DNA of 64,000 nt, taken from positions 1-64,000 of the forward strand of contig CAMCRV010000009.1 of the NCBI GenBank assembly GCA_945877365.1, given 5' to 3'. Of the stretch, positions 21,350-49,952 are shown one piece after another. Both the position numbers and the translations under genes were made by a program. The notes beneath the pieces are model-generated. The model was given only the letters and a program-made list of their open reading frames with translations. It was not told the origin of the DNA and searched no databases. The first letter of the stretch is position 1, and each line of letters begins with the position of its first letter. The stretch is from an uncultured Clostridia bacterium. GTDB lineage: Bacteria; Bacillota; Clostridia; Oscillospirales; Oscillospiraceae.

Positions 21350-21501
21350 ACTGAGCTTTTAACTCAATCAATAAGGCAACAGAAGTTGCCAACCGCCGCG
21401 GGCGGTTTTCGGCATTCGACCCGGCTGTCCGTATGGCCTTGGCCGGCTCTCACCGGCGGTCATTCAATCCTGCTTCGGAAACACTGTTCCAATTGAGATC
21501 G
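21350..21501 (-). ncRNA. Candidate structured leader or small RNA upstream of potA
   Basis: Transcription from the promoter at 21507-21535 would begin near 21501. The first 140 bases fold compactly: a closing pairing CTCAAT (21497-21492) with ATTGAG (21368-21363) encloses hairpins GCCGG-loop-CCGGC (21442-21457), AACCGCC-CGC-GGCGGTT (21391-21407) and GGCAAC-TTCT-GTTGCC (21375-21390). It matches no riboswitch class I can recognise. It could be a polyamine-responsive leader, or a separate small RNA with potA using a nearer promoter. Confidence 0.4.
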
Positions 21502-24203: not shown

Positions 24204-24245
24204 TCCCCCTGACGCGGCTGCTGCCGCATCAGGGGGATATTTTTA
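24204..24245 (+). terminator. Terminator after the flavoprotein gene
   Basis: ATCCCCCTGACGCGG pairs with a matching CCGC...CAGGGGGAT arm (24204-24239), followed by ATTTTTAT. Confidence 0.8.
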
Positions 24246-25145
24246 TGCTTTCATCCGGGATACCACCTGATCCATATGGTTCTGTACCGCCAGCACATCC
24301 TTATCGATCTGCTTACGGACTTCATCAAGGCCATTGAATTTACATACGCCCCGGATATAGCTGTGCAGCTCCAGTGTGAAGCGCTTGCCGTAAATATCCC
24401 GGTTGAAGTTCAGAAGCCAGGTTTCAATGGTGGCGATGGGAATATCGTCATCCGAGGGACGGAAGCCCACGCTGGTCATGCCCCGGAAGAAGGTGCCGTC
24501 CAGATACGCCAGAGACCCATACACCCCATGGGGCGGGAACAGCTTATTCTCTGCCACGCCCAGATTGGCTGTAGGCATACCGTGCTTCCGCCCGGCAGCC
24601 TTTCCGTGAACCACAGTTCCCTGCATAATGTAGGGGTGACCCAGCAGGGCATTCATTTTCTGGAAGTCACCGTCTGCCACAGCCTTTTTGACTTCTTCTG
24701 TGGTGACAGGCTTTCCCTCGAATGTAACGGTGGGGACAACCTCTACGGAGAATCCGAATTCCTGCCCCAGGGCAATCAGGTCTGCCGTTCCTTTTCTGTC
24801 GGAGCCAAAGCACAGGTTCTCACCCACAACCACGGATTTTGCCCGCAGCCTGCTCCACAGGATCTTTTTGCAGAACTCCTCAGCAGTCAGGGTATCCACC
24901 ATTGCCCTGCTTAACGAGATCATCACCTCAACAGACATCCCGGCCAGAAGATATTCCTTCTCGCTCTCGGTGTAGATAACAGGATTCACCTCATCAAAGA
25001 AGCTGACCACAACCGGGGTCTCGCCTTCATATCCCCGGAGCTTTTGAATCACCGCCTGATGACCCAGGTGCAGGCCGTCAAATGTGCCAAAGGCAACCCG
25101 CGTGGAGTTGGGCACCACACCGTTTAAATCGTAAAAATGTTTCAT
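24243..25145 (-). CDS. ribF: Bifunctional riboflavin kinase / FAD synthetase
   Basis: 300 residues, the standard RibF length. The N-terminal nucleotidyltransferase domain has VAFGTFDGLHLGHQAVIQKL (residues 17-36) and VVVGENLCFGSDRKG. The C-terminal riboflavin-kinase domain has HGKAAGRKHGMPTANLG (about 180-196). It converts riboflavin to FMN and FMN to FAD. The location is unusual: it is the last gene of the selenoprotein-reductase cluster rather than next to truB/rbfA, so it may be a second copy supplying flavin to that pathway, or a housekeeping gene that happens to follow it. An 18-bp perfect hairpin (25184-25221) separates it from the permease gene and could lower read-through. The start is set by GGAGGGCAA. 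Confidence 0.9.
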   Translation of the reverse strand: MKHFYDLNGVVPNSTRVAFGTFDGLHLGHQAVIQKLRGYEGETPVVVSFFDEVNPVIYTESEKEYLLAGMSVEVMISLSRAMVDTLTAEEFCKKILWSRLRAKSVVVGENLCFGSDRKGTADLIALGQEFGFSVEVVPTVTFEGKPVTTEEVKKAVADGDFQKMNALLGHPYIMQGTVVHGKAAGRKHGMPTANLGVAENKLFPPHGVYGSLAYLDGTFFRGMTSVGFRPSDDDIPIATIETWLLNFNRDIYGKRFTLELHSYIRGVCKFNGLDEVRKQIDKDVLAVQNHMDQVVSRMKA

Positions 25146-25183
25146 TTCAAATTGCCCTCCTAAAAGATGGATCCGAAATTGCA

Positions 25184-25221
25184 GTTCTGCGGCAGTGCGG
25201 CAAGCCGCACTGCCGCAGAAC
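25184..25221 (-). other. 18-bp perfect hairpin between permease gene and ribF
   Basis: GTTCTGCGGCAGTGCGGC (25184-25201) is followed after two bases by its exact reverse complement (25204-25221). There is no T-run after it on the minus strand, so it is more likely a transcript-stabilising or attenuating structure than a terminator. Confidence 0.7.
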
Positions 25222-25256
25222 CTCTGGGGAAGAAAAAAGAGGAGGAAGGGTAGATT

Positions 25257-26579
25257 TTAGTTAGCCTTCTTCTTGTAGTACAGCATAGCGATCAGGCCAA
25301 GGCCGTAGATCACTGCGGTGAACAGCCACATCTGCATATCACCGCTGGTGAGCTTGGGAATATAGGTACTCAGAATAACCACAACCGTGATGATGGAGAG
25401 CACATTGCCGCCGGGGGCAACAAATGCGCCCTCTTCCAGAGTGGTCTTTTTACGGGCATAGACAGCTGCAATAATAACCATGGAGATGTTCACGGCGGCC
25501 ACCAGAGAGCCCAGGTTCACCAGCAGCTCCGTATACTTGGGCAGGCAGCTCAGCAGGCAGGCAGCAACCGTGGTAATCCAGATGGCAGTGCTGGGGGATT
25601 CGCTCTTGTTCAGCTTTTTGCACACAGCAGGGAATCTGCCGTCATCGGCCATGGCCTTCATAGCGTTTGCCGTCAGATTCAGAACCACCAGCATGGTGGT
25701 GACCAGTGCGATAACGGCAGAGATGGCGATCAGCTTGGGCAGCCAGGGGATATTGCTCATGGAGGTAAAGGCAGCAGCAAACATGGGGATGAAACGCATA
25801 CCAGGGTTATCGATGAGGAACTGGGCGGTAACATGACCCATGGTGGCGGCGATCATCAGGACATACAGCAGAACCACCAGACCCAGAGCAACCAGCGTAG
25901 CCAGGGGGACATTCTTTCTGGGATTTGCCACCTGACCCACCAGGAATGCAACGGCAACGATGGAGCCGAAGCCCGTCATGGCGTTGGGAACAGCCTCAAT
26001 CCAGCCGGTGCTGCCCTTGCAGCCCTGACCGAAGAAATTGCTGAAGTTGGCAGGGTTGAAATTGGGATGGGTAAATGCAACGATCACATAGGTCAGCATG
26101 GTGATAATCAGCACGGAAACCAGAATGTTGTTGATTTTACCGGCGGTGGAGATTTTATTCAGGCACATCCAAGTGCAGAACAGAATGGAAATGATTGCCA
26201 GAGGAATCTGCAGGCTGGAGAAGATCTGCCAGCCGACACCCAGATAGGTGCCCACATAGATGGCGGCAAAGGCAACCGCAATGATGTTGGAAACCAGATA
26301 TCCCCATGCCGTAAGGAAGCCGGCATCCTTGCTGATGGCCCGGGAGGGGAAGGTGTAAACGCCGCCGGACTTGGGATAGCGAATAGACAGCTCAGCTGCC
26401 TGCAGTCCGTAGCAGCCACAGATCGCAGCTGCAATAATCCAGCTGAGGATGGCTGCAGGGCCTGCATAGTACATAGTCATACCGGAAAGGGAGAAGATGG
26501 AGCTGCCAATGCAGCCGCCTGCCAGCATGGTAATACATGCGATCAGGCCAAGTTTACCAGTGTCGGTTTTGTTAGACAT
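25257..26579 (-). CDS. APC-superfamily amino acid/amine permease
   Basis: 440 residues with about 12 membrane segments. The first segment carries the substrate-binding pattern GGCIGSSIFSLSG, and KSGGVYTFPSRA near the second loop is typical of the amino acid-polyamine-organocation superfamily. The cluster it belongs to contains a glycine-reductase-like selenoprotein, so its substrate is probably an amino acid, N-methylated amine or amino-alcohol fed to that enzyme. This is inference from context. AAGGAGGAA lies before the ATG. It is 149 bases downstream of the alcohol dehydrogenase gene, with nothing recognisable in the gap. Confidence 0.88.
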   Translation of the reverse strand: MSNKTDTGKLGLIACITMLAGGCIGSSIFSLSGMTMYYAGPAAILSWIIAAAICGCYGLQAAELSIRYPKSGGVYTFPSRAISKDAGFLTAWGYLVSNIIAVAFAAIYVGTYLGVGWQIFSSLQIPLAIISILFCTWMCLNKISTAGKINNILVSVLIITMLTYVIVAFTHPNFNPANFSNFFGQGCKGSTGWIEAVPNAMTGFGSIVAVAFLVGQVANPRKNVPLATLVALGLVVLLYVLMIAATMGHVTAQFLIDNPGMRFIPMFAAAFTSMSNIPWLPKLIAISAVIALVTTMLVVLNLTANAMKAMADDGRFPAVCKKLNKSESPSTAIWITTVAACLLSCLPKYTELLVNLGSLVAAVNISMVIIAAVYARKKTTLEEGAFVAPGGNVLSIITVVVILSTYIPKLTSGDMQMWLFTAVIYGLGLIAMLYYKKKAN

Positions 26580-26728
26580 TGTTTTTCCTCCTTGTTTTTG
26601 ATGAATATGCTTTGCTGTTTCTCACAGATCGCGGAAAACCCTTTTCTTCCTGTTTCCCGGCGATTGCTACGGATGGATATCCCCGGATTCCGGGAACTTT
26701 TGGCACACCGTCACCTGGGTGCCGCGGA

Positions 26729-27775
26729 TCAGTCGGTAATGATAACGCGGAAGGTTCCGGGAACAATGGCAGCCTCGAAAGCATCCTGCGCCTGGGCAAA
26801 GGGGAAGGTTCTGGCAATCATGCTCTTGCAGTCGATGATGCCGCTGCTCAGCAGCCGGTTTGCCACGAAGAAATCGTGACCATCGGGGCTGATGGAGCCG
26901 GTCAGTACGGTTTCGGTGCCGTGGAGCATCTGCGGGCTCACCGGGGTAGGCGCATCGGGGTGCATGGAGCTGTACTGAATCATGCGTCCAGCCTTGCCGG
27001 TCATGGCAATGGCCTGGGGAACCACAGAAGGAATGGCCGTGGTATTAAACACCACATCTGCGCCCCGTCCTTCGGTGACGGATTTGACGAACTCCACGGG
27101 GTCAACCTCCATGGGGTTGAATACCATATCCGCACCCAGCTTCTTTGCCAGCTCTGCCCGTGCGGGATCCACCTCACTGAGAATAACCCGTGCGCCTCTG
27201 CGCTTTGCCAGCATCACATGGTACTGACCCATGATGCCGCCTCCGATCACCACAACATCTTCACCCAGCTGAATGTTTGCACGGCCGACGGAGTGAACAA
27301 CGCAGGCCAGAGGCTCGGTCAGGCAGGCCTCCTCATAGGTAAGGGTGTCGGGAATTTTAAACAGGGACGCGGTGTCCACGATCACATAGTCGCACAAACC
27401 GCCGGGGCCCACCAGCAGACCCTCCCGGGTGGGCTTCTTCTGGGCACGCTCACACATATTGGTATGTCCGGTACGGCAGTAGTAACACTCTCCGCAGCTG
27501 TACAGCAGGCGGACGGCAACCCGGTCACCAACCGCCCACTTTTTCAGATTGACGCCGGGGCCAAAGGCGGCAATCTCGCCGGAGACCTCATGGCCGCCGG
27601 TGCAGGGCAGAGGCATCTTCACCTCGCCCCGGAAAATCCGCTGCTCCAAAGTACACAGCGCAACCGCATGAACCTTAACCAGTGCCTCGCCGGGGCGGAG
27701 ATCCGGCGTTTCCAGGTTCAGAATCTCACATTTCTTCAGGCCGGTTACGGCGGCGGTTCTGATCTGAATAGACAT
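26729..27775 (-). CDS. Zinc-dependent medium-chain alcohol/polyol dehydrogenase
   Basis: 348 residues. GHEVSGEIAAFGPGVNLKKW holds the GHE metal ligand. The structural-zinc cysteines occur in CGECYYCRTGHTNMC (about 93-107), and the NAD-binding Rossmann motif is VVVIGGGIMGQYHVML. The first catalytic-zinc Cys is in VALCTLEQR. It belongs to the sorbitol/threonine dehydrogenase-like branch and probably oxidises a secondary alcohol of the pathway substrate. AGAGGG precedes the start. It lies 26 bases after the aldolase gene in the leftward cluster. Confidence 0.88.
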   Translation of the reverse strand: MSIQIRTAAVTGLKKCEILNLETPDLRPGEALVKVHAVALCTLEQRIFRGEVKMPLPCTGGHEVSGEIAAFGPGVNLKKWAVGDRVAVRLLYSCGECYYCRTGHTNMCERAQKKPTREGLLVGPGGLCDYVIVDTASLFKIPDTLTYEEACLTEPLACVVHSVGRANIQLGEDVVVIGGGIMGQYHVMLAKRRGARVILSEVDPARAELAKKLGADMVFNPMEVDPVEFVKSVTEGRGADVVFNTTAIPSVVPQAIAMTGKAGRMIQYSSMHPDAPTPVSPQMLHGTETVLTGSISPDGHDFFVANRLLSSGIIDCKSMIARTFPFAQAQDAFEAAIVPGTFRVIITD

Positions 27776-27801
27776 TTTTGATACCCTCTTTCCTCGACCG
27801 T

Positions 27802-28587
27802 TTATTTACCAAGCATCGCCATGGCCTCTTCCACGGAGGCATCCTCGTGGATGATGGCTGCAATGGCGGAGCAGACCTGTGCAACATTTTCGTGGCGGAC
27901 AATATTCCGACCCATGATGACGCCCTTTGCGCCGCAGTCAATGGCTGCGCGGATATTGGCAAAGATATCCTCCTCGGCCTTTGCCTTGCCGCCGCCCAGA
28001 ACCAGAATGGGAGCGTAGCAGTTGGCGCAGACTTCCCGGAAGGCTTCCCCTCCGACGAACTCGGACTTAATGAAATCAGCGCCCAGATCCACGGACTGGC
28101 GGCAGGCAAAGCTCATCAGATCAATGGCGCGGGTATCGATGCCTTCGGGGCGCTCAAAGCCATAGGGCAGAGCCTCGGAGCAGACAGGGAGATTGTAACG
28201 CTCACAGTCCGCTGCCAGCCTTGCCAGATACTTCAGAGAGTGCTCGTTGTTCTGGGAGCCGGGCAAGCCCATACACAGCATGGCATCGGCTCCCACACGG
28301 ACAGCGTCCTCGGCGGTGTACAACAGCTCCAGGGGGGATTGGGGCTTACGGATCATGGAAGCGCCGCCATCGGCGCGCATGATAATGCCGGCATTTCCAA
28401 AATCATCGGAAAAGTTCTTGATAATGCCATAGGTGGTGAGGAACGCATCCACTCCGCCGGCAACACACTCCCGGATAATATGGCCGGGATCCTTCAGATC
28501 GGGGGAGTACATCTGTGCGGAGTGGTCCATTGCCAGCACGAAGGACTTTCCATCCTTTTTGAAGATATTGTTCATTCTGCGTTTCAT
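27802..28587 (-). CDS. Class I (Schiff-base) aldolase of the FbaB/LsrF/DeoC-like family
   Basis: 261 residues forming a TIM barrel. KSFVLAMDHSAQM near the start, GADFIKSEFVG (about 172-182, with the probable Schiff-base lysine), ILVLGGGKAKAEEDIF and GAKGVIMGRNI (phosphate-binding end) match archaeal-type class I fructose-bisphosphate aldolases and LsrF thiolases. In this cluster it probably cleaves or condenses a sugar-phosphate or keto-acid intermediate, giving an aldehyde for the nearby aldehyde dehydrogenase. The exact substrate is unknown. AAAGGATC precedes the ATG. Confidence 0.85.
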   Translation of the reverse strand: MKRRMNNIFKKDGKSFVLAMDHSAQMYSPDLKDPGHIIRECVAGGVDAFLTTYGIIKNFSDDFGNAGIIMRADGGASMIRKPQSPLELLYTAEDAVRVGADAMLCMGLPGSQNNEHSLKYLARLAADCERYNLPVCSEALPYGFERPEGIDTRAIDLMSFACRQSVDLGADFIKSEFVGGEAFREVCANCYAPILVLGGGKAKAEEDIFANIRAAIDCGAKGVIMGRNIVRHENVAQVCSAIAAIIHEDASVEEAMAMLGK

Positions 28588-28613
28588 GGTAATCAGATCC
28601 TTTCAGTTTTTTA

Positions 28614-29936
28614 TCAATAGGCAACGCAGGTCATCTTGCTGTATGCACACTGATTTCCGCCCATATACATATGGGTGCGGGTACCGATGGTGACCTCCCC
28701 GGTTGCAGGCGGGAACCAGCCTCCGGACTCCTTATTCAGGCGGAAGGTATCGCCGCCCACGGCCCGATCCACTGCCGGCAGGGTAATGGGCCGCTCAATG
28801 GAGCCGCCGGAGCACACTGCATCGGCTTCCGGTACATCGTCCACCAGCAGCAGACCCTCGGTGCCGTCCTTGCCGCCGAACTCGAAGGTCAGCGTGGAGG
28901 CCCGGATGCCATGCTGCTCCGCCGTCTGAATGGTGAGCATTCCGTCGGTGCAGGCATTGCCGCCTCCCGTCCAGACCATGACCAGCCCCTTTGCCCCCAG
29001 CATCTGCGCCAGCTTCACATTCTGGCTGGCGGAGCGCTGCTTGTGCCAGTTGCTGGGCTCATGGCTGCGGCTGAAGATAACCCCCTTGAAGTTCAGATCC
29101 TTGCCATGGCGGCGGTACAGCTCCAGCAGCACCGGGTGGTTCACATGGCAGTAGGTAGGCACCTTGAACGCCGGCCACACATAGTTTCCACTGACCACGC
29201 AGCCGTCCAGCATCTCATTGGGATGCAGCACCGTGGGGAACAGGTTGTCAATGGGCAGGCCATAGAGCAGCGTATTGGAGTAGGGTCCCTGATTCTGGCA
29301 CTGCCAGACCATGACCACACCGGGCAGCTCCGGATGCTCCTCGTCCAGAGAAAACTGTTCGCTGTCGTCCGGCGTCAGCCCCCGGGTCAGCTCAGCCAGA
29401 TAGGCAGAAATCTTCATGGCGATGAGCCGGATGGCATCGTCGTACTCGATGGAGGAGAATCCCTCCCCCAGCTCATAGACGATCACCAGGTTGTGCATCC
29501 CGGCAAACGGCGTATAGCCTGCGGCAAAGCCGCTGAGCTCAATGATGGCATCCCGGGGATACAGCAGGCCGCTGGAAGCATTGGCGCTGTCCCAGGGCAG
29601 AGCCGCGCTCTCGATTACGGAGAAGCCTCGGTACAGGTTGGTAACTCCCCGGCCGGCCGTATAGGGCGTGCTGAAGAAGCCGGGGTACTGCTGGCTCTCT
29701 CCCTCCACCTTTACCATGGGCTGCACGGCATCCAGCACATGGACGATCCGGGCGTTTTCTCCGGGTTTGGTAATCTCCAGATGAAATCCCGTCACGGCCT
29801 TGAACAGGTGCTTTGTCAGCGCCACAAGCTCTTCCTCGTTCACTGTCAATACCCCATGGGCAAAGGCACATTTCTCTCCGAATACCACATCTTTTACATC
29901 GTAGTACTGTCGGGTAAGCTTCATATCCATCATCAT
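28614..29936 (-). CDS. GrdE/GrdG/GrdI-like subunit of a glycine-reductase-type complex (component B proprotein family)
   Basis: 440 residues. The protein matches the component B alpha/beta proprotein of glycine, sarcosine and betaine reductases, with FPTVLHPNEMLDGCVVSGNY (about 233-252), NHPVLLELYRRHGKDLNFKG and the C-terminal FEFGGKDGTEGLLLVDDVPE. In the known enzymes this chain is cut at a Cys that becomes a pyruvoyl group holding the substrate amine. From recall of the family that Cys follows VSGNYV at the third position (V-A-C-D pattern); here the segment reads VSGNYVWPAFKVPTYC, with Ala instead, so processing may not occur. The gene starts one base before the stop of the GrdB-like gene, so translation is coupled. 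Which of the clustered ATG codons is used (29936 or 29933) is uncertain. Confidence 0.85.
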   Translation of the reverse strand: MMMDMKLTRQYYDVKDVVFGEKCAFAHGVLTVNEEELVALTKHLFKAVTGFHLEITKPGENARIVHVLDAVQPMVKVEGESQQYPGFFSTPYTAGRGVTNLYRGFSVIESAALPWDSANASSGLLYPRDAIIELSGFAAGYTPFAGMHNLVIVYELGEGFSSIEYDDAIRLIAMKISAYLAELTRGLTPDDSEQFSLDEEHPELPGVVMVWQCQNQGPYSNTLLYGLPIDNLFPTVLHPNEMLDGCVVSGNYVWPAFKVPTYCHVNHPVLLELYRRHGKDLNFKGVIFSRSHEPSNWHKQRSASQNVKLAQMLGAKGLVMVWTGGGNACTDGMLTIQTAEQHGIRASTLTFEFGGKDGTEGLLLVDDVPEADAVCSGGSIERPITLPAVDRAVGGDTFRLNKESGGWFPPATGEVTIGTRTHMYMGGNQCAYSKMTCVAY

Positions 29937-31268
29937 TTAACCCTCCTTTGCCGCATCCACCGTGAAGATGGTAGGCCCGGACACTTCCGTCTGCAGAACC
30001 TCCAGCGCCTTGTCGATGATTTTGCGGCGGTAAACCTTCTCCCGATCGGGGGGAAGGTCAGGATTGCCTGTGGGAGCGGTAAAATCACCGCCAAAGACGA
30101 TCCGGTTGGAGCCCACATTTTTTGCAATGGACAGAAATGCATTGATATGCACATTGGGAATTCCCACACGGTCCATTTCCTTGGAAATCGTTGCACCGCA
30201 ACGCGTGCAGGTGCCTCATGTGGAGGTGAGAATCGCCGCTGTGACCCCGGCATCCTTTAATCTCTTTGCCCAGTCCGCACCCATCTTCTGTCCGGAGGCC
30301 ACATTGGTGCCAACACCGCAGGTGGAGCCAAAGAAGGGATACAGCTGCCCGATGACACCCTCCTCCACGCAGTCCTTCACCACATCCATGGGCACCAGCC
30401 GATGGGGGTCGTTGCTGACAAAGGTGGTATCGTAGCCTCCGTGGATGGACTCAAATTCGCCCTTCTTCAGGGCATCCAGGCCGGTCATATCGTATACGCC
30501 GTAGCTCACGGCGAAGGCCTGCTTGATCTTATCCGGATTGCCCACAGGCACCAGTCCGCCTGTGGTGAAAAGCGCAATCTTTGCCCTGCTGATATCCCTG
30601 ACCGGAGGCGCAGGGGGCACCTGCTCAAAGCCCCGGTGGGGAACCTCGGTCTGATAGGGTTTTCCGTAGAGCTTGGCAACCACCATATCCACCACACGCT
30701 CCGCGCCGGATTTGGCAACATACGCATTGTTGCGGTGGCCGGTTTCCAGATAGCCCTCCACCCTGGCGGGGCCGATTTCCTCACCCTTTGCCAGCTTCAG
30801 CGCCAGCGCCGCCATCACCGGCAGAGCCTTGCGCATACCGGTTGCCGTTTCGGGCGTGGAGATGATGTAGTTGTCCTTTACATACATTCCCACGGCAGGG
30901 TTCTCCCACCACATACCCGTCAGGCTGGGAACACCCAGCTCCCTGCGGACAAAGTCGCAGACCTTGGCGCAGGCCACGCCGTAGCGCCCAGCGTTAAAGG
31001 CCGGACCGGCAAGAAACACATCCGGCTTTTCCTCTTCGATAACCTTCCGGATCTGTTCCTGTATCCCGGGCCAGTTTTCATCGGTATTGACATAATTGTC
31101 CCCGCAGTAGACCACTTTGGTGATGGTCATTTCCCCCTTGAACAGAGGTTCCAGACCAGCCGCAGGGCCTTTTTTCTCGGAAATCACCGTAAAGGGCGTA
31201 TCCGCCATGGTTTCGCCGCCAACACCGGCATAGAACTGATTGATGTACTGTACTGCTTTCAATCCCAT
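29937..31268 (-). CDS. Selenoprotein B of a glycine/sarcosine/betaine reductase-type complex (GrdB family), UGA read as selenocysteine
   Basis: 443 residues with one in-frame TGA at 30216-30218, decoded as selenocysteine 351. Reading through gives ILTST-U-GTCTRCGATISKEM, the U-x-x-C-x-x-C active site of GrdB/GrdF/GrdH, and the following 92 residues (VGIPNVHINAFLSIAKNVGS and GGDFTAPTGNPD) continue the family alignment to a TAA stop at the usual total length. Upstream, MGLKAVQYINQFYAGVGGE, CAKVCDFVRRELGVPSLTGM and FFGSTCGVGTNVASGQKMGA are family hallmarks. A 7-bp hairpin with a GUU loop begins six bases after the UGA and could be the SECIS. The enzyme family cleaves C-N bonds of amines by selenol attack, making a Se-carboxymethyl-type adduct. 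The start at 31268 has AAGGAG at a long 13-base distance. Confidence 0.92.
30190..30218 (-). promoter_or_regulatory. Selenocysteine codon and candidate bacterial SECIS hairpin
   Basis: The UGA (30218-30216) is followed on the minus strand by GGCACC, then TGCACGC-GTT-GCGGTGCA, which pairs as seven base pairs with one bulged G and a GUU apical loop. A G at the start of the loop close behind the UGA is the general requirement for SelB recognition. selA, selB, selC and selD are not in the window. Confidence 0.65.
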
Positions 31269-31320
31269 AACATTCTTTCAACTCCTTTTCCTTGTTCCGG
31301 GTCGATCAGGAACCCGTATT

Positions 31321-31890
31321 TCAGTCAACGCTCTGTCCGTAGGGAGGACTGGAAATAATCACAAATGCCGCAGGCTGCTCTTCCGTGCAGATCAGATGCT
31401 CCACATCTGCCTCAAACACTATGCTGTCACCCTGCTCCAGCAGATATCGATCCTCCTGCACATACACACAGACGCAGCCAGACAGCGTGAGGATCATCTC
31501 CTGACCCTGACCGTGCTTGTGAATATGCCGCTCTGCCGGAGATCCGGGGGGCATGTATACATAGCTGGCCTGAAGGAAATTGGAGTCGGCCGGTGTCACA
31601 ACTCTGTACGAAATATCGCCAAAGGTGCTGGAATCCTGATACAGGTCTTTCATCCGAATCACCCTGGGAATCTGTCCCGCAGGCTGCAGAAAATAAATCA
31701 TGTCCACCTTGAAGAAAGCGGCAACACGCTGCAAATTCGTAATGGATACAGAATGCTTGCCATTCTCCAGCCCGGACAGATAGGAGTAGCTCATTCCCGT
31801 TTCTGCAGCCATCTGCTGCAGGGAGATTCCGCGGATTTTTCGCAGTGCGCGGATCTTCTTTCCAATTTCCGCATTGGTCTGTTCTTCCAA
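31321..31890 (-). CDS. XRE-family regulator with C-terminal cupin domain
   Basis: 189 residues. The helix-turn-helix (about 8-62) reads IGKKIRALRKIRGISLQQMA followed by ETGMSYSYLSGLENG. A cupin sensor domain (about 110-185) shows MPPGSPAERHIHKHGQGQEM and LEQGDSIVFEADVEHLICTE. This architecture is that of PuuR-like regulators of amine and amino-acid catabolic operons, where the cupin binds the small-molecule inducer. It most likely controls the selenoprotein cluster it sits in, perhaps through the palindromes at 33542-33560 and 33619-33632. The start is a TTG at 31890 preceded by AGGAGGGG at ideal spacing, the only well-supplied start in the frame. Confidence 0.88.
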   Translation of the reverse strand: MEEQTNAEIGKKIRALRKIRGISLQQMAAETGMSYSYLSGLENGKHSVSITNLQRVAAFFKVDMIYFLQPAGQIPRVIRMKDLYQDSSTFGDISYRVVTPADSNFLQASYVYMPPGSPAERHIHKHGQGQEMILTLSGCVCVYVQEDRYLLEQGDSIVFEADVEHLICTEEQPAAFVIISSPPYGQSVD

Positions 31891-31915
31891 GGGATTCCCC
31901 TCCTTATTTCTGTTT

Positions 31916-33403
31916 TTACAGAGGCGGAAGTGTTCCCTCTACCGTTTCTACAAAGACGGTTTTGGAGATCATGTACTTCTTCATGCCTGCGACACCCAGG
32001 CCGCTTTCCTTCCAGCCCGTTCCGGGAGACTCAATCATTCCCTTCGAGAAATAGTTGTTCACATAAATCTGTCCGCCCTTGATTCCATTGGCAACCCGCA
32101 GACCCCGCTTCAGATCCTTGGTAAACACTGCGCCGGCCAGTCCGAAGGAGGTTCCGTTGGCCAGAGCCAGCGCCTCTTCTTCCGTGTCAAAGGGTGTCAC
32201 GCAGGCTACGGGTCCGAAGATTTCCTCCTGGAAAATGGTCATATCCGGGGTGACATCTGCAAAAATGGTTACGGGAACAAAGTTGCCCCTGGCCAGCACG
32301 GGGTCGGTATAGCGCTCCCCGCCCAGAACCAGACGGGCGCCCTCGTCCTTGCCCTTCTGGATATATCTCCAGACGCTTTCCGCATGGGTTTTGGAAATCA
32401 TGGGGTCCAGATTGGTGCTGAAATCGAAGGTATCGCCGGGGACGAACTTCTCCGCTGCGAATCTGCACATTTCTTCCACAAACTCGTCGTAAATGCTGCG
32501 CTGCACCAGAACCCGGGTGCCGGAAACGCAGACCTGTCCGGAATGGTTGGTAAAGCCCCAGACAGCCCACTGTGCAGCGGATTTGATATCCACATCCTCA
32601 AAGAAGATATTGGGGCTCTTGCCGCCCAGCTCCAGAGCAATATCCTTGACCCGCTCCGCACTGTTGCGGATGATTTCCCGACCGGTTTCGATTCCACCGG
32701 TCATGGCCACCATATCCACATCCGGATGCTTTGTCAGATAGGCGCCGACCGTGCCGCCGGAACCGGTAACCACATTAAACACGCCTGCAGGCAGGCCGGC
32801 CTCCTCGTAAACCCCCGCCAGCTGCAGCAGCGTCAGAACACCCCAGGAGGGTGGCTTGATGACACAGGCATTGCCTGCGGCCAGAATGGCGTTGATCTTC
32901 TGACAGCCCATGAGATACGGCCCGTTCCAGGGCAGGATTTCCGCAACAACACCCACCGGATTCCAGGTGACATAGTTCAAAGTGCCGTAATCCGAGGGAA
33001 CCACAGAGCCTTCGCACTCCCGGGCCTTGCCTGCAAAGAACTGGAAGGAATCCACCGCCATGGGAACGCAGTAGTATCTGGCGGAACCGTAGTGATAACC
33101 ACACTCCAGAGCCTCCAGCGTTGCGAACTCGTCAGCACGGCGCTCCATGATCTGAGCGGCCTTCATCAGAATCTTTGCTCTGTCACGGGCAGCCATGCGG
33201 CCCCATGGGCCTTCGTCAAATGCCTTGCGTGCGGCGGCCACTGCTTTGCGGGCATCCTCCACATCTCCGTAATAAGCCTTCGCGAACACCTCATTGTTGG
33301 CAGGGTTTACACAGTCCTGCATCCTCCCGGAAGCCGAAGGCACATACTGGCCGTCAATGTACAGCCGATAGGGCTCCTTACTTACCAAGTCCATGGGATT
33401 CAT
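31916..33403 (-). CDS. NAD(P)-dependent aldehyde dehydrogenase
   Basis: 495 residues, standard ALDH length. The catalytic Cys is in NHSGQVCVSGTRVLVQRSIY (about 285-304), the general base Glu in DIALELGGKSPNIFFEDVDI, and the NAD motif near VTGSGGTVGAYLTKH. It is related to betaine aldehyde and gamma-aminobutyraldehyde dehydrogenases. It is the first gene of the leftward cluster and would oxidise the aldehyde produced by the pathway to an acid. The start at 33403 has AGGAGG nine bases upstream. Confidence 0.93.
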   Translation of the reverse strand: MNPMDLVSKEPYRLYIDGQYVPSASGRMQDCVNPANNEVFAKAYYGDVEDARKAVAAARKAFDEGPWGRMAARDRAKILMKAAQIMERRADEFATLEALECGYHYGSARYYCVPMAVDSFQFFAGKARECEGSVVPSDYGTLNYVTWNPVGVVAEILPWNGPYLMGCQKINAILAAGNACVIKPPSWGVLTLLQLAGVYEEAGLPAGVFNVVTGSGGTVGAYLTKHPDVDMVAMTGGIETGREIIRNSAERVKDIALELGGKSPNIFFEDVDIKSAAQWAVWGFTNHSGQVCVSGTRVLVQRSIYDEFVEEMCRFAAEKFVPGDTFDFSTNLDPMISKTHAESVWRYIQKGKDEGARLVLGGERYTDPVLARGNFVPVTIFADVTPDMTIFQEEIFGPVACVTPFDTEEEALALANGTSFGLAGAVFTKDLKRGLRVANGIKGGQIYVNNYFSKGMIESPGTGWKESGLGVAGMKKYMISKTVFVETVEGTLPPL

Positions 33404-45719: not shown

Positions 45720-45740
45720 AATTTGCAGAAAAATAAAAGA

Positions 45741-45847
45741 ATCTTCAGGGCAGGGTGCAATTCCCTACCGGTGGTACAGCCCACGAGCCGCAAGGCATGA
45801 TTCGGTGAAACTCCGAAGCCGACAGTACAGTCTGGATGAAAGAAGAT
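45741..45847 (+). ncRNA. FMN riboswitch (RFN element)
   Basis: The closing stem ATCTTC (45741-45746) / GAAGAT (45842-45847) encloses the strongly conserved RFN blocks AGGGCAGGGTGCAATTCCCT, ACCGGTGGTACAGCCCACGA, GCATGATTCGGTGAAACTCC and GCCGACAGTACAGTCTGGAT. It binds FMN and in known cases shuts off riboflavin synthesis or transport genes. It lies 20 bases after a consensus promoter and 105 bases before the first gene of an ABC transporter operon. GCAGAT (45857-45862) can pair with ATCTGC (45887-45892), which would occupy the 5' side of the terminator, so it is the likely antiterminator. Confidence 0.96.
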
Positions 45848-45890
45848 TTTTCCGCCGCAGATGGGATTTTCCCTCTGGGGCGCCTTATCT

Positions 45891-45951: not shown

Positions 45952-46824
45952 ATGAAGCTCAATGCAAAACAGCAAAAAAACTTAAAAATTCTTGGATTTC
46001 TCGCCCCCATCCTGATATTTTCCATTCTGTTTGTCTATTATCCCTTCTGCCGGAATCTGATAAACAGCCTGTATGCCGTGAGTGATAAGGGGGAGCTGCT
46101 GCGGTTCGTGGGGCTTGACAACTTCCGCTCCGTGTTCAGCCGTCGGGATTTCCGGCAGTTTTTCGCCAACACGCTGCTGCTTACCGCCATCAATGTGCCC
46201 GTTACCCTGTTTCTCACCATTTTGCTGGGGCGGCTGGCCATGAAAAAGCGGCGGCTCAGCCCGGTATATGAGACCATGTTCGCCCTTCCCATGTCCATCT
46301 CCATGTCCGCCGCCGCCATGATCTTCAAATCCATGTTCAGCCCCACTCTGGGCTGCGTCAACGCATGGCTGGGGCTGAAGCTGGGCTGGTTTGAAAGCCG
46401 GGACACCGCCCTGTATACCTGCGTGATTCTCACCGTCTGGATGGGCATCGGCTTTGACTATCTGCTGTTCCAGTCTGCCTTCCGGGGCATCCCCAGGGAA
46501 ATTCTGGAGGCCGCCGATCTGGACGGCACAGGCTTTTTCACCCGTCTTTTCAAAATCGAGCTGCCCCTGATCTCCCCCACGGTGTTCTATGTGCTGTGCA
46601 CCAACGCGGTGCTGGCGCTCATGACCTCCGGCCCCATGATCCTCATCACCCAGGGCGGCCCCTCCCGCTCCACCGGAACCCTGATGTATATGATGTACGC
46701 CTCCGGCTTCGGCAGCAGCAACTATTCTCTGGCGGCGGTGGTGAGCCTTGTGGCTTTCTGCCTTACCTTCGGTTTGACCCTGCTTTCCTTCCTGTTTGAA
46801 CGAAAGAAGGTGTTCTATCAGTGA
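45952..46824 (+). CDS. Sugar-type (CUT1, MalF/UgpA-like) ABC permease under FMN riboswitch
   Basis: 290 residues, six membrane segments. The EAA loop is FRGIPREILEAADLDGTGFF followed by TRLFKIELPLISP (about 180-212). N-terminal FLAPILIFSILFVYYPFCRN is typical of carbohydrate-uptake permeases. It is the first gene after the FMN riboswitch, so the imported solute is probably riboflavin, another flavin, or a breakdown product, not an ordinary sugar. The start at 45952 has AAGGTGG ten bases upstream. Its stop overlaps the next start by four bases (GTGA). Confidence 0.92.
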   Translation: MKLNAKQQKNLKILGFLAPILIFSILFVYYPFCRNLINSLYAVSDKGELLRFVGLDNFRSVFSRRDFRQFFANTLLLTAINVPVTLFLTILLGRLAMKKRRLSPVYETMFALPMSISMSAAAMIFKSMFSPTLGCVNAWLGLKLGWFESRDTALYTCVILTVWMGIGFDYLLFQSAFRGIPREILEAADLDGTGFFTRLFKIELPLISPTVFYVLCTNAVLALMTSGPMILITQGGPSRSTGTLMYMMYASGFGSSNYSLAAVVSLVAFCLTFGLTLLSFLFERKKVFYQ

Positions 46825-47654
46825 AACGATACACGAAAGAACGCCTTTGGGACGCCCTGGTCTCCTGCATCGCCATTTTTCTCGGGCTGATCATCGTGTT
46901 TCCGGTGATCTACTGCATCCTCGGGGCCTTCAAGACCCCGGCGGAGTTTGCCTCCCCGGTGCTGCTGCCCAAGAGCTTTGCCTATCTGGAGAATTTCCGC
47001 AACGCTCTGCATCAGGCTCCCCTGCTGCGCTACATGGTCAACTCCTTCATCACCGCCTTTGCCGGCTCCTTTATCCGGCTGGCTATGGCTGTCTGCGCCG
47101 CCTTTGCCCTGACCCACTACGATTTCCGAGGGAAAAAACTGTGCTTTTTCTTCCTGCTGGGCACCATGATGATGCCCGGTGACACGCTGCTGATGGCAAA
47201 CTATGCCACCGTATCCCGGCTGGGACTTCTGAACTCCTATCTGGGCATGATCATCGTCTCCTTCGTCAGCGCCAGTCAGATGTTCCTGCTGCGGCAGAAA
47301 TTTCTGTCCTTCCCCAAGGCTCTGCGCCACGCCGCCATGCTGGACGGCTGCGGCGACCTGCGGTATCTGCTGACCATTCTGCTGCCCCTGTGCCGGGGCA
47401 CACTCACCACCCTCTTCGTCCAGAGCTTCCTGTCCCTGTGGAACGCCTATCTCTGGCCCCTGATGGTCACCGCCAGCGCCCCGGATATGCGCACCATCAT
47501 GGTGGGCATCACCAAGCTCAACTCCTGGGAGGATACCAACTATGAGCTGGTGCTGGCCGGGGTCACCATTTCCCTCATCCCCTCCTTTGTTCTCTTCGCC
47601 CTGATGCGGCGGAACCTGAACAAAGACAATACAGATGGCAGCCTCAACGGCTAG
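46821..47654 (+). CDS. Sugar-type (CUT1, MalG/UgpE-like) ABC permease under FMN riboswitch
   Basis: 277 residues, six membrane segments. The EAA loop is FPKALRHAAMLDGCGDLRYL followed by LTILLPLCRG (about 172-202). GTMMMPGDTLLMANYATVSR corresponds to the conserved stretch before segment three of MalG-type permeases. It forms the channel with the preceding permease. The start is a GTG overlapping the previous stop; AAGGTG lies upstream. No ATP-binding gene is in the operon or in the next genes, so the pair must borrow an ATPase encoded elsewhere, as MsmK-type shared ATPases do for other CUT1 systems. Confidence 0.92.
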   Translation: MKRYTKERLWDALVSCIAIFLGLIIVFPVIYCILGAFKTPAEFASPVLLPKSFAYLENFRNALHQAPLLRYMVNSFITAFAGSFIRLAMAVCAAFALTHYDFRGKKLCFFFLLGTMMMPGDTLLMANYATVSRLGLLNSYLGMIIVSFVSASQMFLLRQKFLSFPKALRHAAMLDGCGDLRYLLTILLPLCRGTLTTLFVQSFLSLWNAYLWPLMVTASAPDMRTIMVGITKLNSWEDTNYELVLAGVTISLIPSFVLFALMRRNLNKDNTDGSLNG

Positions 47655-47679
47655 CCCCAAATTTCAGGAGGTAAAAGCC

Positions 47680-49059
47680 ATGAAAAAGCTGTTTTCCCTG
47701 GTCCTCGTTCTGTCCCTGCTGCTTTCCGGCTGCGGCGGCGCTGCCCCGGCGGAGACCGCCCCTGTCCAGACCGCTGCACCCGAAACCACCGAGGCCGCTG
47801 CCACGGAGCCTGTCCTTGGCTCTGCGCCTGTGAACCTCACCTTCTGGCACAGTGCCTCCGACGAGGCTGGCGTGCTGATGGACAAATACATCGCCGAATT
47901 CAACGCCTCCAATCCCTACGGCATCACCGTCAAGGGCATTTATCAGGGTCAGTATTCCGATGCCACCACATTGCTGAAAACCCTGCTGTCTGCCGAAAAC
48001 TACAGCGAGCTTCCCGATGTGATGCAGATGGATGCCACCGGCAAGATGGCCTATGTGAACTCCGGCAAGGCCTTCACCACCCAGGATGCTCTGGCAGCCT
48101 ACCCCCAGCCCGGTTTTCTGGAGGATTACCTGCCCACTGCCCTGACCAACTGGCAGTTCGCCGGAACCCAGCTGGGTTTGCCCTTCGCCACCTCCACCAC
48201 AGTCACCTACTATAATGCCGATCTGCTCTCCGCCGCCGGGTGGGACAAGGCTCCCGACACCTTTGCCGACATTTCCGCCCTGTATGCCGACCTGACCGCC
48301 GCCGGACGGACGGAGAAGGTTCTGCAAACCATCCCCAACAGCCCCACCCTGGCCAACTGGCTGGGTCAGCTGGGCAGCTACCTTGTAAACAACCGCAACG
48401 GTGCGGACGGCGTTGCCACCGCTCTGGACTGCGTGGACAGCGGTGCGCTGGAAACCTTCCTGACCGCGTGGAAGGCCATGTACGACAGCGGAGCCCTGCT
48501 GAACGAGGGCAGCTCCTCCGACCTGTTCATCTCCGGGGGCGTGGCTGTGATGACCGGCTCTTCCTCCAATGTCCACTCCATTCTCACCAAGGTGGACGGT
48601 GCCTTTGAGGTGGGAGTCGCCCCCTACCTTCGGGTGAATGCGGATGCCGCCTACGGTGCCGGTGTCTCCGGCTCCTGCGTGGTGATGTTCGACTCCGGCG
48701 ACAGTCTGCGCAAAGCCGCCGCATGGGAGTTTGTGAAGTACCTCACCAGTGCCGAGGTGCAGGCGGACTTTGCCGCCGGAACCGGCTATATCCCTGCCCA
48801 CAAGGGTGCCATGGACACCGCCGTATATCAGGATTTGATTGCCCAGTATCCCCAGTACGCCGTGGCCTATCAGCAGCTGATGGACACCCCGGAAACCATC
48901 ACCTCCGTCACCGTGGGACCTTCCAAGGACTTCTACTACGCCGTGATGCAGGGCGTGTCCGATATGCTGGAGTATGACCAGACCCCGGCAGAGGCCGCCG
49001 AAATTCTGGAGGATGAGCTGACCATGCTGCTGGAGGACTACCTGCGCAGCAACAGCTGA
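47680..49059 (+). CDS. Extracellular solute-binding lipoprotein (UgpB-like, CUT1 family) under FMN riboswitch
   Basis: 459 residues. The signal peptide ends at the lipobox LLLSGC (Cys about 18), followed by a Thr/Ala/Pro linker. The mature domain opens VNLTFWHSASDEAGVLMDKY, and has GLPFATSTTVTYYNADLLSA and AAAWEFVKYLTSAEVQADFA, typical of family 1 binding proteins such as UgpB and sugar binders. UgpB recognises glycerol-3-phosphate; a ligand with a ribityl chain or phosphate would therefore be plausible, but this is inference. AGGAGG precedes the start. It is third in the FMN-controlled operon, 25 bases after the permease gene. Confidence 0.92.
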   Translation: MKKLFSLVLVLSLLLSGCGGAAPAETAPVQTAAPETTEAAATEPVLGSAPVNLTFWHSASDEAGVLMDKYIAEFNASNPYGITVKGIYQGQYSDATTLLKTLLSAENYSELPDVMQMDATGKMAYVNSGKAFTTQDALAAYPQPGFLEDYLPTALTNWQFAGTQLGLPFATSTTVTYYNADLLSAAGWDKAPDTFADISALYADLTAAGRTEKVLQTIPNSPTLANWLGQLGSYLVNNRNGADGVATALDCVDSGALETFLTAWKAMYDSGALLNEGSSSDLFISGGVAVMTGSSSNVHSILTKVDGAFEVGVAPYLRVNADAAYGAGVSGSCVVMFDSGDSLRKAAAWEFVKYLTSAEVQADFAAGTGYIPAHKGAMDTAVYQDLIAQYPQYAVAYQQLMDTPETITSVTVGPSKDFYYAVMQGVSDMLEYDQTPAEAAEILEDELTMLLEDYLRSNS

Positions 49060-49073
49060 TGGAGGAAGAAGCT

Positions 49074-49952
49074 ATGGAACTTTCCACCTCCACCAATCTG
49101 GTGTCCTTTCAGCCCGGGAAACAGCGCAACAACCTGCTGTTTTGCATCCCGGAATGCGCCCGGGGCGGCTACCGGGTGCTGGATCTCAACTTCTGCGAGG
49201 CCATGAATCCCACCTCCCGGCTCCGGGAGGATCGCTGGGAGGACTATATCCGCCAGATTGCCCAGCTGGGGCAGCAGTGGGGCGTTTCCTTCCATCAGTG
49301 CCACCTACCCTACTACGACATTTTCCGGCAGGATACCCTTGATCCCACCATGGAAATTCTGATTGACCGGTGCCTTCAGGCCTGCGCCATGCTGGGCATC
49401 CGATGGGCGGTGACCCACCCCGGCACGGTGTACGGTGCCGACAAGTCGGTGTGTCTGGAACGAAATCTAAGCTACTACCGCCCCCATCTGGAAACCGCCG
49501 CCGCTCTGGGGGTGGGGATCTGTCTGGAAAACGACTTCTCCTGCCGCCCCGGGGAAACCCTGTACTGCTCCCACATCCCGGATCTGGTGGAGCTGACGGA
49601 CAGCTTTGGCGACCCGGAGCATCTGGCCATCTGCTATGACTTTGGTCACGCCAATCTGGCCAATCCCGGCCACACCCGGGAGGATCTGCTGGACATCGGC
49701 CAACGGCTGAAGGCTGTCCATGTCAACGACAACCAGGGCACCGCCGACGAGCACCTGATGCCCTTCCACGGTACCGTGGACTGGAAGGCAGCCATGGCAG
49801 CTTTGGCGGAAATCGGCTACACCGGCGACCTGACCTACGAAATTCAGGAATTCGGCCGGTATCTTCCCAACGATCAGAAGCAGCTGGTGGTGGAATACTC
49901 CCAAAAAATCGGCGCTGTCCTTTTGGACTACTACAACAAAGCGTTTTCCTGA
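49074..49952 (+). CDS. Sugar-phosphate isomerase/epimerase-type TIM-barrel enzyme, last gene of the FMN-riboswitch operon
   Basis: 292 residues. The xylose-isomerase-like barrel has probable metal ligands in CLENDFS (Glu), CYDFGHANL (Asp, His), HVNDNQG (His, Asp) and TYEIQEFG (Glu). Relatives are tagatose epimerases, inosose isomerases and endonuclease IV. Its presence with a transporter under FMN control suggests that it acts on the imported compound, perhaps its sugar-alcohol part. The start at 49074 is preferred, as GGAGGAAG lies eight bases upstream; an ATG at 49059 overlapping the previous stop has none. A terminator follows. Confidence 0.88.
   Translation: MELSTSTNLVSFQPGKQRNNLLFCIPECARGGYRVLDLNFCEAMNPTSRLREDRWEDYIRQIAQLGQQWGVSFHQCHLPYYDIFRQDTLDPTMEILIDRCLQACAMLGIRWAVTHPGTVYGADKSVCLERNLSYYRPHLETAAALGVGICLENDFSCRPGETLYCSHIPDLVELTDSFGDPEHLAICYDFGHANLANPGHTREDLLDIGQRLKAVHVNDNQGTADEHLMPFHGTVDWKAAMAALAEIGYTGDLTYEIQEFGRYLPNDQKQLVVEYSQKIGAVLLDYYNKAFS

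Follow-up and report, generated by a model that had tools for sequence, protein, structure and literature searches.

We analysed 64,000 nt of DNA from an uncultured Clostridia bacterium of the Oscillospiraceae (positions 1–64,000 of contig CAMCRV010000009.1, assembly GCA_945877365.1), hereafter the window, and in it a cluster of eight genes at 24243–33403 on the minus strand that encodes a selenoprotein of the GrdB type, its GrdE-type partner and a paralogue of the flavin enzyme RibF. The eight leftward genes, listed before in a reading of the sequence alone, are all present, each with a domain match, and intergenic gaps measure at most 149 bases. The order is aldehyde dehydrogenase (ALDH), XRE-cupin regulator, GrdB, GrdE, aldolase, alcohol dehydrogenase (ADH), APC permease and RibF, with the following features:

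31916–33403, minus strand: aldehyde dehydrogenase, FinG-like (Aldedh, 518 bits)
31321–31890, minus strand: XRE-cupin regulator (HTH_3 and Cupin_2)
29937–31268, minus strand: GrdB-type selenoprotein (PF07355, 455.6 bits; TIGR01918, 496.6 bits)
30216–30218, minus strand: in-frame UGA (selenocysteine) in the UxxCxxC motif, seen on reading through the TGA
30178–30215, minus strand: candidate SECIS_4 element (36.8 bits, gathering score 38, E 2.9e-7)
28614–29936, minus strand: GrdE-type partner with SGNY for SGNC (PF09338, 424 bits)
27802–28587, minus strand: DhnA-type class I aldolase (DeoC/LacD family match)
26729–27775, minus strand: zinc-dependent medium-chain alcohol dehydrogenase (ADH_N and ADH_zinc_N)
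25257–26579, minus strand: APC-superfamily permease (AA_permease_2), kept across the cluster loci
24243–25145, minus strand: RibF paralogue, FinB-like (Flavokinase, 116.5 bits)

The sequence-only reading had regarded the pathway as undescribed. However, a neighbourhood of this kind is the subject of a bioRxiv preprint of February 2026, according to which Clostridium scindens converts about half of the supplied riboflavin to lumichrome within six hours under anoxic conditions, and the riboflavin-upregulated genes lie almost all in one neighbourhood, finA-K, named fin for flavin-induced (PMC12934955). There, finB is RibF-like, finC encodes an aldolase, finD an ADH and finG an ALDH, finHI belong to the glycine-reductase family, and Muricomes intestini is named as having a similar neighbourhood (PMC12934955). 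A contig scan of genomes with the window GrdB gave 11 loci, among them that of M. intestini DSM 29489 (L012), which matches seven of the eight window genes with 38–64% identity. All but the XRE gene are likewise found together in L004 of Faecalicatena contorta ET51, which keeps the window order at 68–89% identity and has no match to the XRE protein, and in L005–L009, L011 and L012 (hereafter the M. intestini-type loci), where the order is aldolase-ADH-APC-RibF-ALDH-GrdB-GrdE and where ALDH, GrdB and GrdE are 60–69% identical to those of the window. L010 shows APC-RibF-ALDH-GrdB, four genes on a cut contig, and L014 contains a glycine-type GrdB/GrdE pair alone (GrdB 747.7 against a cut-off of 602.2). 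Via the M. intestini locus, the window cluster thus qualifies as an orthologue of the fin-type neighbourhood, as judged from the RibF clade (support 1.000) and the GrdB clade (98/94) described below. The window cluster differs in gene order, in the divergence of its ribityl-module genes and in its regulator: an XRE-cupin protein stands in place of the SorC-like sugar-binding regulator of the M. intestini-type clusters (PF04198 shown in L005; other loci judged by eye).

Within the family the cluster is rare. Some GrdB is encoded in 28 of 400 family genomes, the window's own included (E ≤1e-40), but the fin-type GrdB occurs in two, i.e. the window's own genome and G078 (68% identity); the next match is 49% identical. 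Cluster-type RibF is found in the same two genomes, and none else exceeds 162 bits among the matches listed. In G078 the genes are split: ALDH-XRE-GrdB-GrdE, with an XRE-cupin copy 47% identical to that of the window, lies beside an iron-containing ADH (L057), and aldolase-ADH-regulator-RibF-APC (L094) is located ~1 Mb away. That two unlinked modules are kept as a rare combination argues for one pathway, with G078 as the single informative case of co-occurrence and the window's own genome as the case that had been selected. In L057 (1078–11782), the iron-containing ADH could oxidise hydroxyethylflavin, and genes for an amidohydrolase, a membrane dipeptidase and a peptide-binding protein are nearby. 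L094 (5147–14885) has two aldolase-like and two ADH-like genes as judged by eye, an apparent duplication.

The GrdB frame contains a TGA at 30216–30218 within U-G-T-C-T-R-C (UxxCxxC) and ends at a TAA directly before the ATG of the GrdE gene; when read through the TGA, its product scores 455.6 bits with Pfam GRDB (PF07355; cut-off 22) and 496.6 bits with TIGR01918 (cut-off 65.45). The in-frame UGA, which had been noticed from the sequence alone, is kept in relatives, namely in all 12 fin-type GrdB rows (11 genes) and in the sister sequence of L013, and is therefore not a chance stop. In each of 11 other loci searched (ten fin-type loci, L004–L012 and L057, and the sister L013), the Rfam model SECIS_4 matches right after the UGA with a score that exceeds gathering. 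Folding of the 61-base stretch at the UGA is weakly better than that of shuffled sequences (z -1.48; 19 of 200 shuffles as good), so that the assignment of a selenocysteine insertion element rests on the Rfam model. A tree built from 43 GrdB rows groups all 12 of the fin type in a single clade (98/94), next to which L013 branches. In this tree L026 and L057 represent one gene, L050–L052 lack UxxCxxC in the extracted sequences, and a long-branch warning applies, with L013 among the long branches. The GrdB and GrdE sets were freed of the duplicate loci L001, L002 and L025, and family GrdB matches are on the tree where their locus was fetched. The window GrdB does not reach the cut-offs of the glycine (TIGR01917; 461.3 against 602.2), sarcosine (NF040794; 493.1 against 800) or betaine (GrdH, NF040795; 427.2 against 775) reductase models, and M. 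intestini GrdB also stays below them (441.9, 450.5 and 418.7, respectively). A comparison of GrdB by sequence with solved structures gave no match.

In the window GrdE, SGNY replaces SGNC, and the Asn-Cys site that forms the pyruvoyl group is gone. Among the 42 GrdE rows compared, 26 carry SGNC, all from outside the fin type; SGNY is present in all 11 fin-type rows (10 genes) as well as in L013, and the GrdE of L010 lies outside its contig. SGNC is absent, too, from L049, whose GrdB is of the betaine type (776.2 against 775), and from L050–L052. In glycine GrdE, the pyruvoyl group arises from the N-terminal Cys of a processed chain (peptide of residues 242–266; PMC9908766), whereas fluoroacetate FarE and betaine GrdI are described without processing cysteines (PMC10838667), and the role of the pyruvoyl group is under debate (PMC10838667, PMC9908766). 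The loss of this site in fin-type GrdE is consistent with a substrate whose nitrogen is fully substituted, as Schiff-base help would not be expected in this case, but is not decisive because the role of the pyruvoyl group is itself debated. The window GrdE misses the cut-offs of the sarcosine GrdG model (NF040793; 251.1 against 780) and of the fluoroacetate FarE model (NF053623; 138.2 against 675).

Thus, the window pair shares with component B of the glycine, sarcosine and betaine reductases (GrdB/GrdE, GrdF/GrdG, GrdH/GrdI) a UxxCxxC selenoprotein plus partner subunit, and would likewise be expected to feed GrdA and GrdC/D, but it scores under every equivalog cut-off tested, forms its own clade and has a GrdE without the pyruvoyl Cys. 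Glycine, sarcosine, betaine and fluoroacetate reductase were rejected as identities of the pair on these cut-offs. The fluoroacetate reductase FarB/FarE of Cloacibacillus is a GrdB/GrdE pair for a non-amine substrate, its GrdE also lacks processing cysteines and it feeds the common GrdA/C (PMC10838667); FarB, however, has no CxxC, which the window GrdB keeps, and the window GrdE is far from the FarE model.

The RibF paralogue had been listed in the sequence-only reading and left unused there. It is a genuine paralogue with motifs kept in its kinase half only, and the only PF01687 match in an assembly that is 97.3% complete. As in bifunctional RibF both domains are present; the kinase motif GRxxGxPTAN and a Glu, which we take to be catalytic, are kept in all 11 cluster RibFs (window, L004–L012 and L094), whereas the FAD-synthetase (FMN-adenylyltransferase) motif SS[ST]xIR is lost as a whole in all 11, reading TTEEVK in the window, with its Arg remaining in L010 and L094. 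A further segment, FxFG, is deleted in nine of 11, i.e. in all except the window and L004. All 29 other family RibFs on the tree retain SS[ST]xIR, as does a truB-linked copy in the window genome, and ten cluster RibFs form one clade with support of 1.000. The tree was built without L009, L066, L072 and L077, which have a stop in the extracted frame (motifs of L009 were read separately), and without the duplicate loci L024, L058, L060, L061, L095 and L096; the comparison set of 29 RibFs consists of top-scoring or fetched proteins rather than random ones and derives from 30 loci fetched among the matches listed; listed matches without a fetched locus score at most 140.5 bits. We propose that the cluster RibF is a riboflavin kinase. 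In the scheme outlined below it would serve as kinase only, and its FAD-synthetase half may therefore decay.

A reciprocal pattern is seen in the truB-linked housekeeping RibF of the window genome (L023, 1231–1950; truB recognised by eye), in which the kinase domain is lost or degenerate and the FAD-synthetase motif is intact. We had read this as pointing to the cluster RibF as the cell's riboflavin kinase and dropped it as proof, because three genomes of the same genus, G440, G428 and G443, also carry kinase-less RibFs with an intact FAD-synthetase motif (L097, L098 and L099) and are without any flavokinase (PF01687) match. Loss of the RibF kinase seems to be tolerated without a cluster kinase.

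By type, the aldolase belongs to the DhnA/archaeal class I enzymes. The Lys aligned with the Schiff-base position of MJ0400 and LsrF, together with the GGxK and GRN loops, is kept in 10 of 10 copies. The nearest NCBIfam aldolase models, NF005556 (176.8 against 241) and TIGR01949 (158 against 299.45), both for 2-amino-3,7-dideoxy-D-threo-hept-6-ulosonate synthase, are not reached. Among solved structures, the zinc-dependent ADH best matches L-threonine 3-dehydrogenases, with sorbitol and galactitol-1-phosphate dehydrogenases further down. The ALDH gene adjoins grdB, or is separated from it by the XRE gene alone, in 12 of 12 aligned loci, including that of G078 where the ribityl genes are elsewhere.

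GrdA, GrdC, GrdD and thioredoxin genes had been described as missing from the cluster, which is correct for the cluster, but not for the organism. Contig C13 of the same genome encodes a glycine-type GrdB (667.9 against 602.2), a GrdE with SGNC, GrdA, GrdC, GrdD and TrxB, in addition GrdX, SelA, SelB and the selenium transporter YedE, each over its cut-off, and a TrxA-like protein slightly under it (136.6 against 140); tRNA-Sec and a glycine riboswitch are located there as well. GRDA was found by a whole-genome search, too. The search for sel and grd genes that the earlier reading had suggested thus turned up SelA, SelB, tRNA-Sec, GrdA, GrdC and GrdD. As the remaining reductase parts sit on C13, the eight-gene cluster would supply only a component B, an arrangement known from many bacteria, in which several substrate-specific B complexes feed one common reductase system (PMC10838667). 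GrdA is present in 10 of the 11 genomes that carry the cluster genes (the window's own, G078 and eight of nine from the contig scan).

We consider it very probable that riboflavin or FMN (flavin mononucleotide) is the substrate of the cluster. This idea was drawn up from the conserved RibF before we found the preprint: when RibF is read as kinase of the substrate side chain, riboflavin suggests itself, in which a polyol, the ribityl chain, is attached to nitrogen. We infer the reactions and their order as follows. The RibF paralogue would phosphorylate riboflavin to FMN, whose 4'-hydroxyl group would be oxidised by the zinc-dependent ADH to give 4'-keto-FMN with an end resembling dihydroxyacetone phosphate (DHAP), a usual partner of this aldolase class. 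Retro-aldol cleavage to formylmethylflavin takes place at C2'-C3' and requires a carbonyl at C4'; the class I aldolase would make this cut, releasing DHAP and 10-formylmethylflavin. The latter would be oxidised by the ALDH to 10-carboxymethylflavin, an N-substituted acetate and thus a proper kind of substrate for GrdB/GrdE, since its X-CH2-COO- structure is like that of glycine, betaine and fluoroacetate. The selenocysteine of GrdB/GrdE would then break the N10-CH2 bond, yielding lumichrome and a two-carbon unit that is passed to the shared GrdA, from which GrdC/GrdD would make acetyl phosphate with thioredoxin providing the electrons. The atoms balance, as carboxymethylflavin (C14H12N4O4) plus 2H equals lumichrome (C12H10N4O2) plus acetic acid (C2H4O2). 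The XRE-cupin protein may sense a compound of the pathway, and the APC permease may move a flavin or product, by uptake or export.

This scheme agrees with lumichrome formation in a strain with Grd genes, with hydroxyethylflavin reported for F. fissicatena, which is without finHI, and with ribose and ribitol having no effect on growth (PMC12934955). Hydroxyethylflavin would be expected in F. fissicatena if formylmethylflavin is the branch point of the scheme. We regard the full scheme, including action of GrdB/GrdE on carboxymethylflavin, as likely. With somewhat less confidence, we favour the view that the pair represents a new class of component B, a carboxymethylflavin reductase, with riboflavin serving as a Stickland-type electron acceptor that yields DHAP, acetyl phosphate and lumichrome, and with selenium deciding between lumichrome and hydroxyethylflavin or carboxymethylflavin. 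The kind of cluster is already described in the 2026 preprint; what we propose here are the individual reactions and the dependence of the last one on selenium. The preprint assigns no pathway steps in the parts covered, and none of the terms seleno, selenium, acetyl, dihydroxyacetone, carboxymethyl and retro-aldol appears in its main text (PMC12934955). A limited literature search found no other paper that links lumichrome in this way to glycine reductase or to selenoproteins, and in the parts of a 2026 selenoproteome review that were covered riboflavin and aldolase are nowhere mentioned (PMC13188914). At about 1970 a gut anaerobe was reported to form hydroxyethylflavin, and lumichrome production is likewise on record for unidentified gut strains (PMC12934955); a proven enzyme for either was not found in the literature searched, and another, computed candidate cluster for hydroxyethylflavin has been proposed in Sutterella (PMC8877437). 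The known enzyme RcaE of Microbacterium and Devosia also converts riboflavin to lumichrome; unlike the phosphorylation, retro-aldol cleavage and selenium-dependent reduction proposed for the window, it acts aerobically, as an oxygen-dependent monooxygenase that releases ribose (PMC12934955).

Several observations weigh against the riboflavin scheme. The window aldolase, ADH, RibF and APC permease are 38–49% identical to those of the M. intestini-type loci, M. intestini included, and the permease is a member of a superfamily of amino-acid transporters. The SECIS_4 score of the window remains slightly below the gathering score (36.8 against 38), and GrdA was not found in the genome of L011 when the 11 cluster-bearing genomes were searched. 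In L013, the 15.5 kb fetched from the 28.9 kb contig contain the sister-branch ALDH-GrdB-GrdE genes and no ribityl genes. Riboflavin did not improve the growth of a Blautia strain that carries fin homologues, and the link between fin and lumichrome is one of expression only, with no mutants seen in the parts of the preprint covered, the authors also considering flavin overflow or metabolic damage (PMC12934955).

One alternative keeps the flavin as substrate and all genes in use, and has GrdB/GrdE attack an earlier, e.g. keto, flavin to give lumichrome and a reduced deoxysugar, with ALDH and aldolase processing the released chain. A leaving group alpha to a carbonyl is all that Grd chemistry requires, which would allow for this. 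However, hydroxyethylflavin in F. fissicatena, which has no Grd genes, implies that C2'-C3' is cut before N-C cleavage, and the ALDH stays with GrdB/GrdE where the ribityl genes are elsewhere, as in G078; we therefore consider this order of events unlikely. More doubtful is another N-alkyl polyol or amine as substrate, such as an Amadori product, an N-substituted glucamine or carboxymethyl-lysine, which comes close to the earlier inference of a larger amine or amino sugar whose skeleton is cut by the aldolase. Indeed, aldolase, ADH and ALDH would suit any polyol attached to nitrogen, and APC permeases carry amines and amino acids. C-N cleavage combined with an aldolase cut was about right as a general idea, and GrdB/GrdE do form a clade of their own, but RibF points to riboflavin rather than an amino sugar; another amine would leave the conserved riboflavin-kinase paralogue and the riboflavin induction of the orthologous neighbourhood unexplained, and the GrdE lacks the site used by glycine reductase. 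A shade less probable again is control of flavin overflow or damage, suggested in the preprint from the RibF-like gene and colourless cultures, in which FinB would split FADH2 (reduced flavin adenine dinucleotide, FAD) to yield FMN and the remaining enzymes would remove reduced flavins (PMC12934955). The FAD-synthetase half, expected to be necessary for such pyrophosphorolysis, is without its motif in 11 of 11 cluster RibFs and has lost a further segment in nine, C. scindens FinB lying outside this set. That the pair is simply component B of a known glycine, sarcosine or betaine reductase among unrelated neighbours, to which membership of the GRDB and Gly_reductase families might point, is highly improbable given that all GrdB/GrdE equivalog cut-offs tested are missed, the clade is separate and a glycine-type GrdB is encoded apart on C13.

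If the carboxymethylflavin scheme holds, it explains lumichrome formation by gut microbes, adds a vitamin-derived substrate to the glycine-reductase family and argues against the FAD-pyrophosphorylase role suggested for FinB. The supply of selenium would then determine which breakdown product of riboflavin reaches the gut; both lumichrome and formylmethylflavin have been reported as ligands of MR1 (PMC12650265, PMC12338742). With genes named for each step, the question becomes directly testable. The ALDH-GrdB/GrdE genes may in addition be a portable unit that converts X-CH2-CHO to X-H and acetyl phosphate with several nitrogen-linked substrates, as they have their own locus in G078 and, in L013, occur without nearby ribityl genes, so that the pair may serve further substrates. 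In L013 (1145–12659), ALDH-GrdB-GrdE lie beside amidohydrolase and molybdenum hydroxylase genes, with a gene of the amino acid kinase family downstream; the L013 pair probably acts on another nitrogen-linked substrate.

Neither the window cluster nor any of 12 related loci (L004–L013, L057 and L094) has an FMN riboswitch match that reaches the gathering score. The only FMN riboswitch match of the genome (117 bits) is at 45737–45851 on the plus strand of the window, 12 kb from the cluster and directly upstream of another operon (45952–49952, plus strand), which encodes a glycerol-3-phosphate-type (Ugp-like) ABC transporter together with a TIM-barrel protein (AP_endonuc_2; weak similarity to CbiR, 28.4 against 105). 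Since a search of the assembly gave no ribH match and the truB-linked RibF is without its kinase domain, this riboswitch-preceded operon could be an uptake system for FMN or FAD. Finally, positions 21409–21462 on the minus strand match the streptococcal small RNA family SpF59 (RF02440) with 67.8 bits against 37.2.

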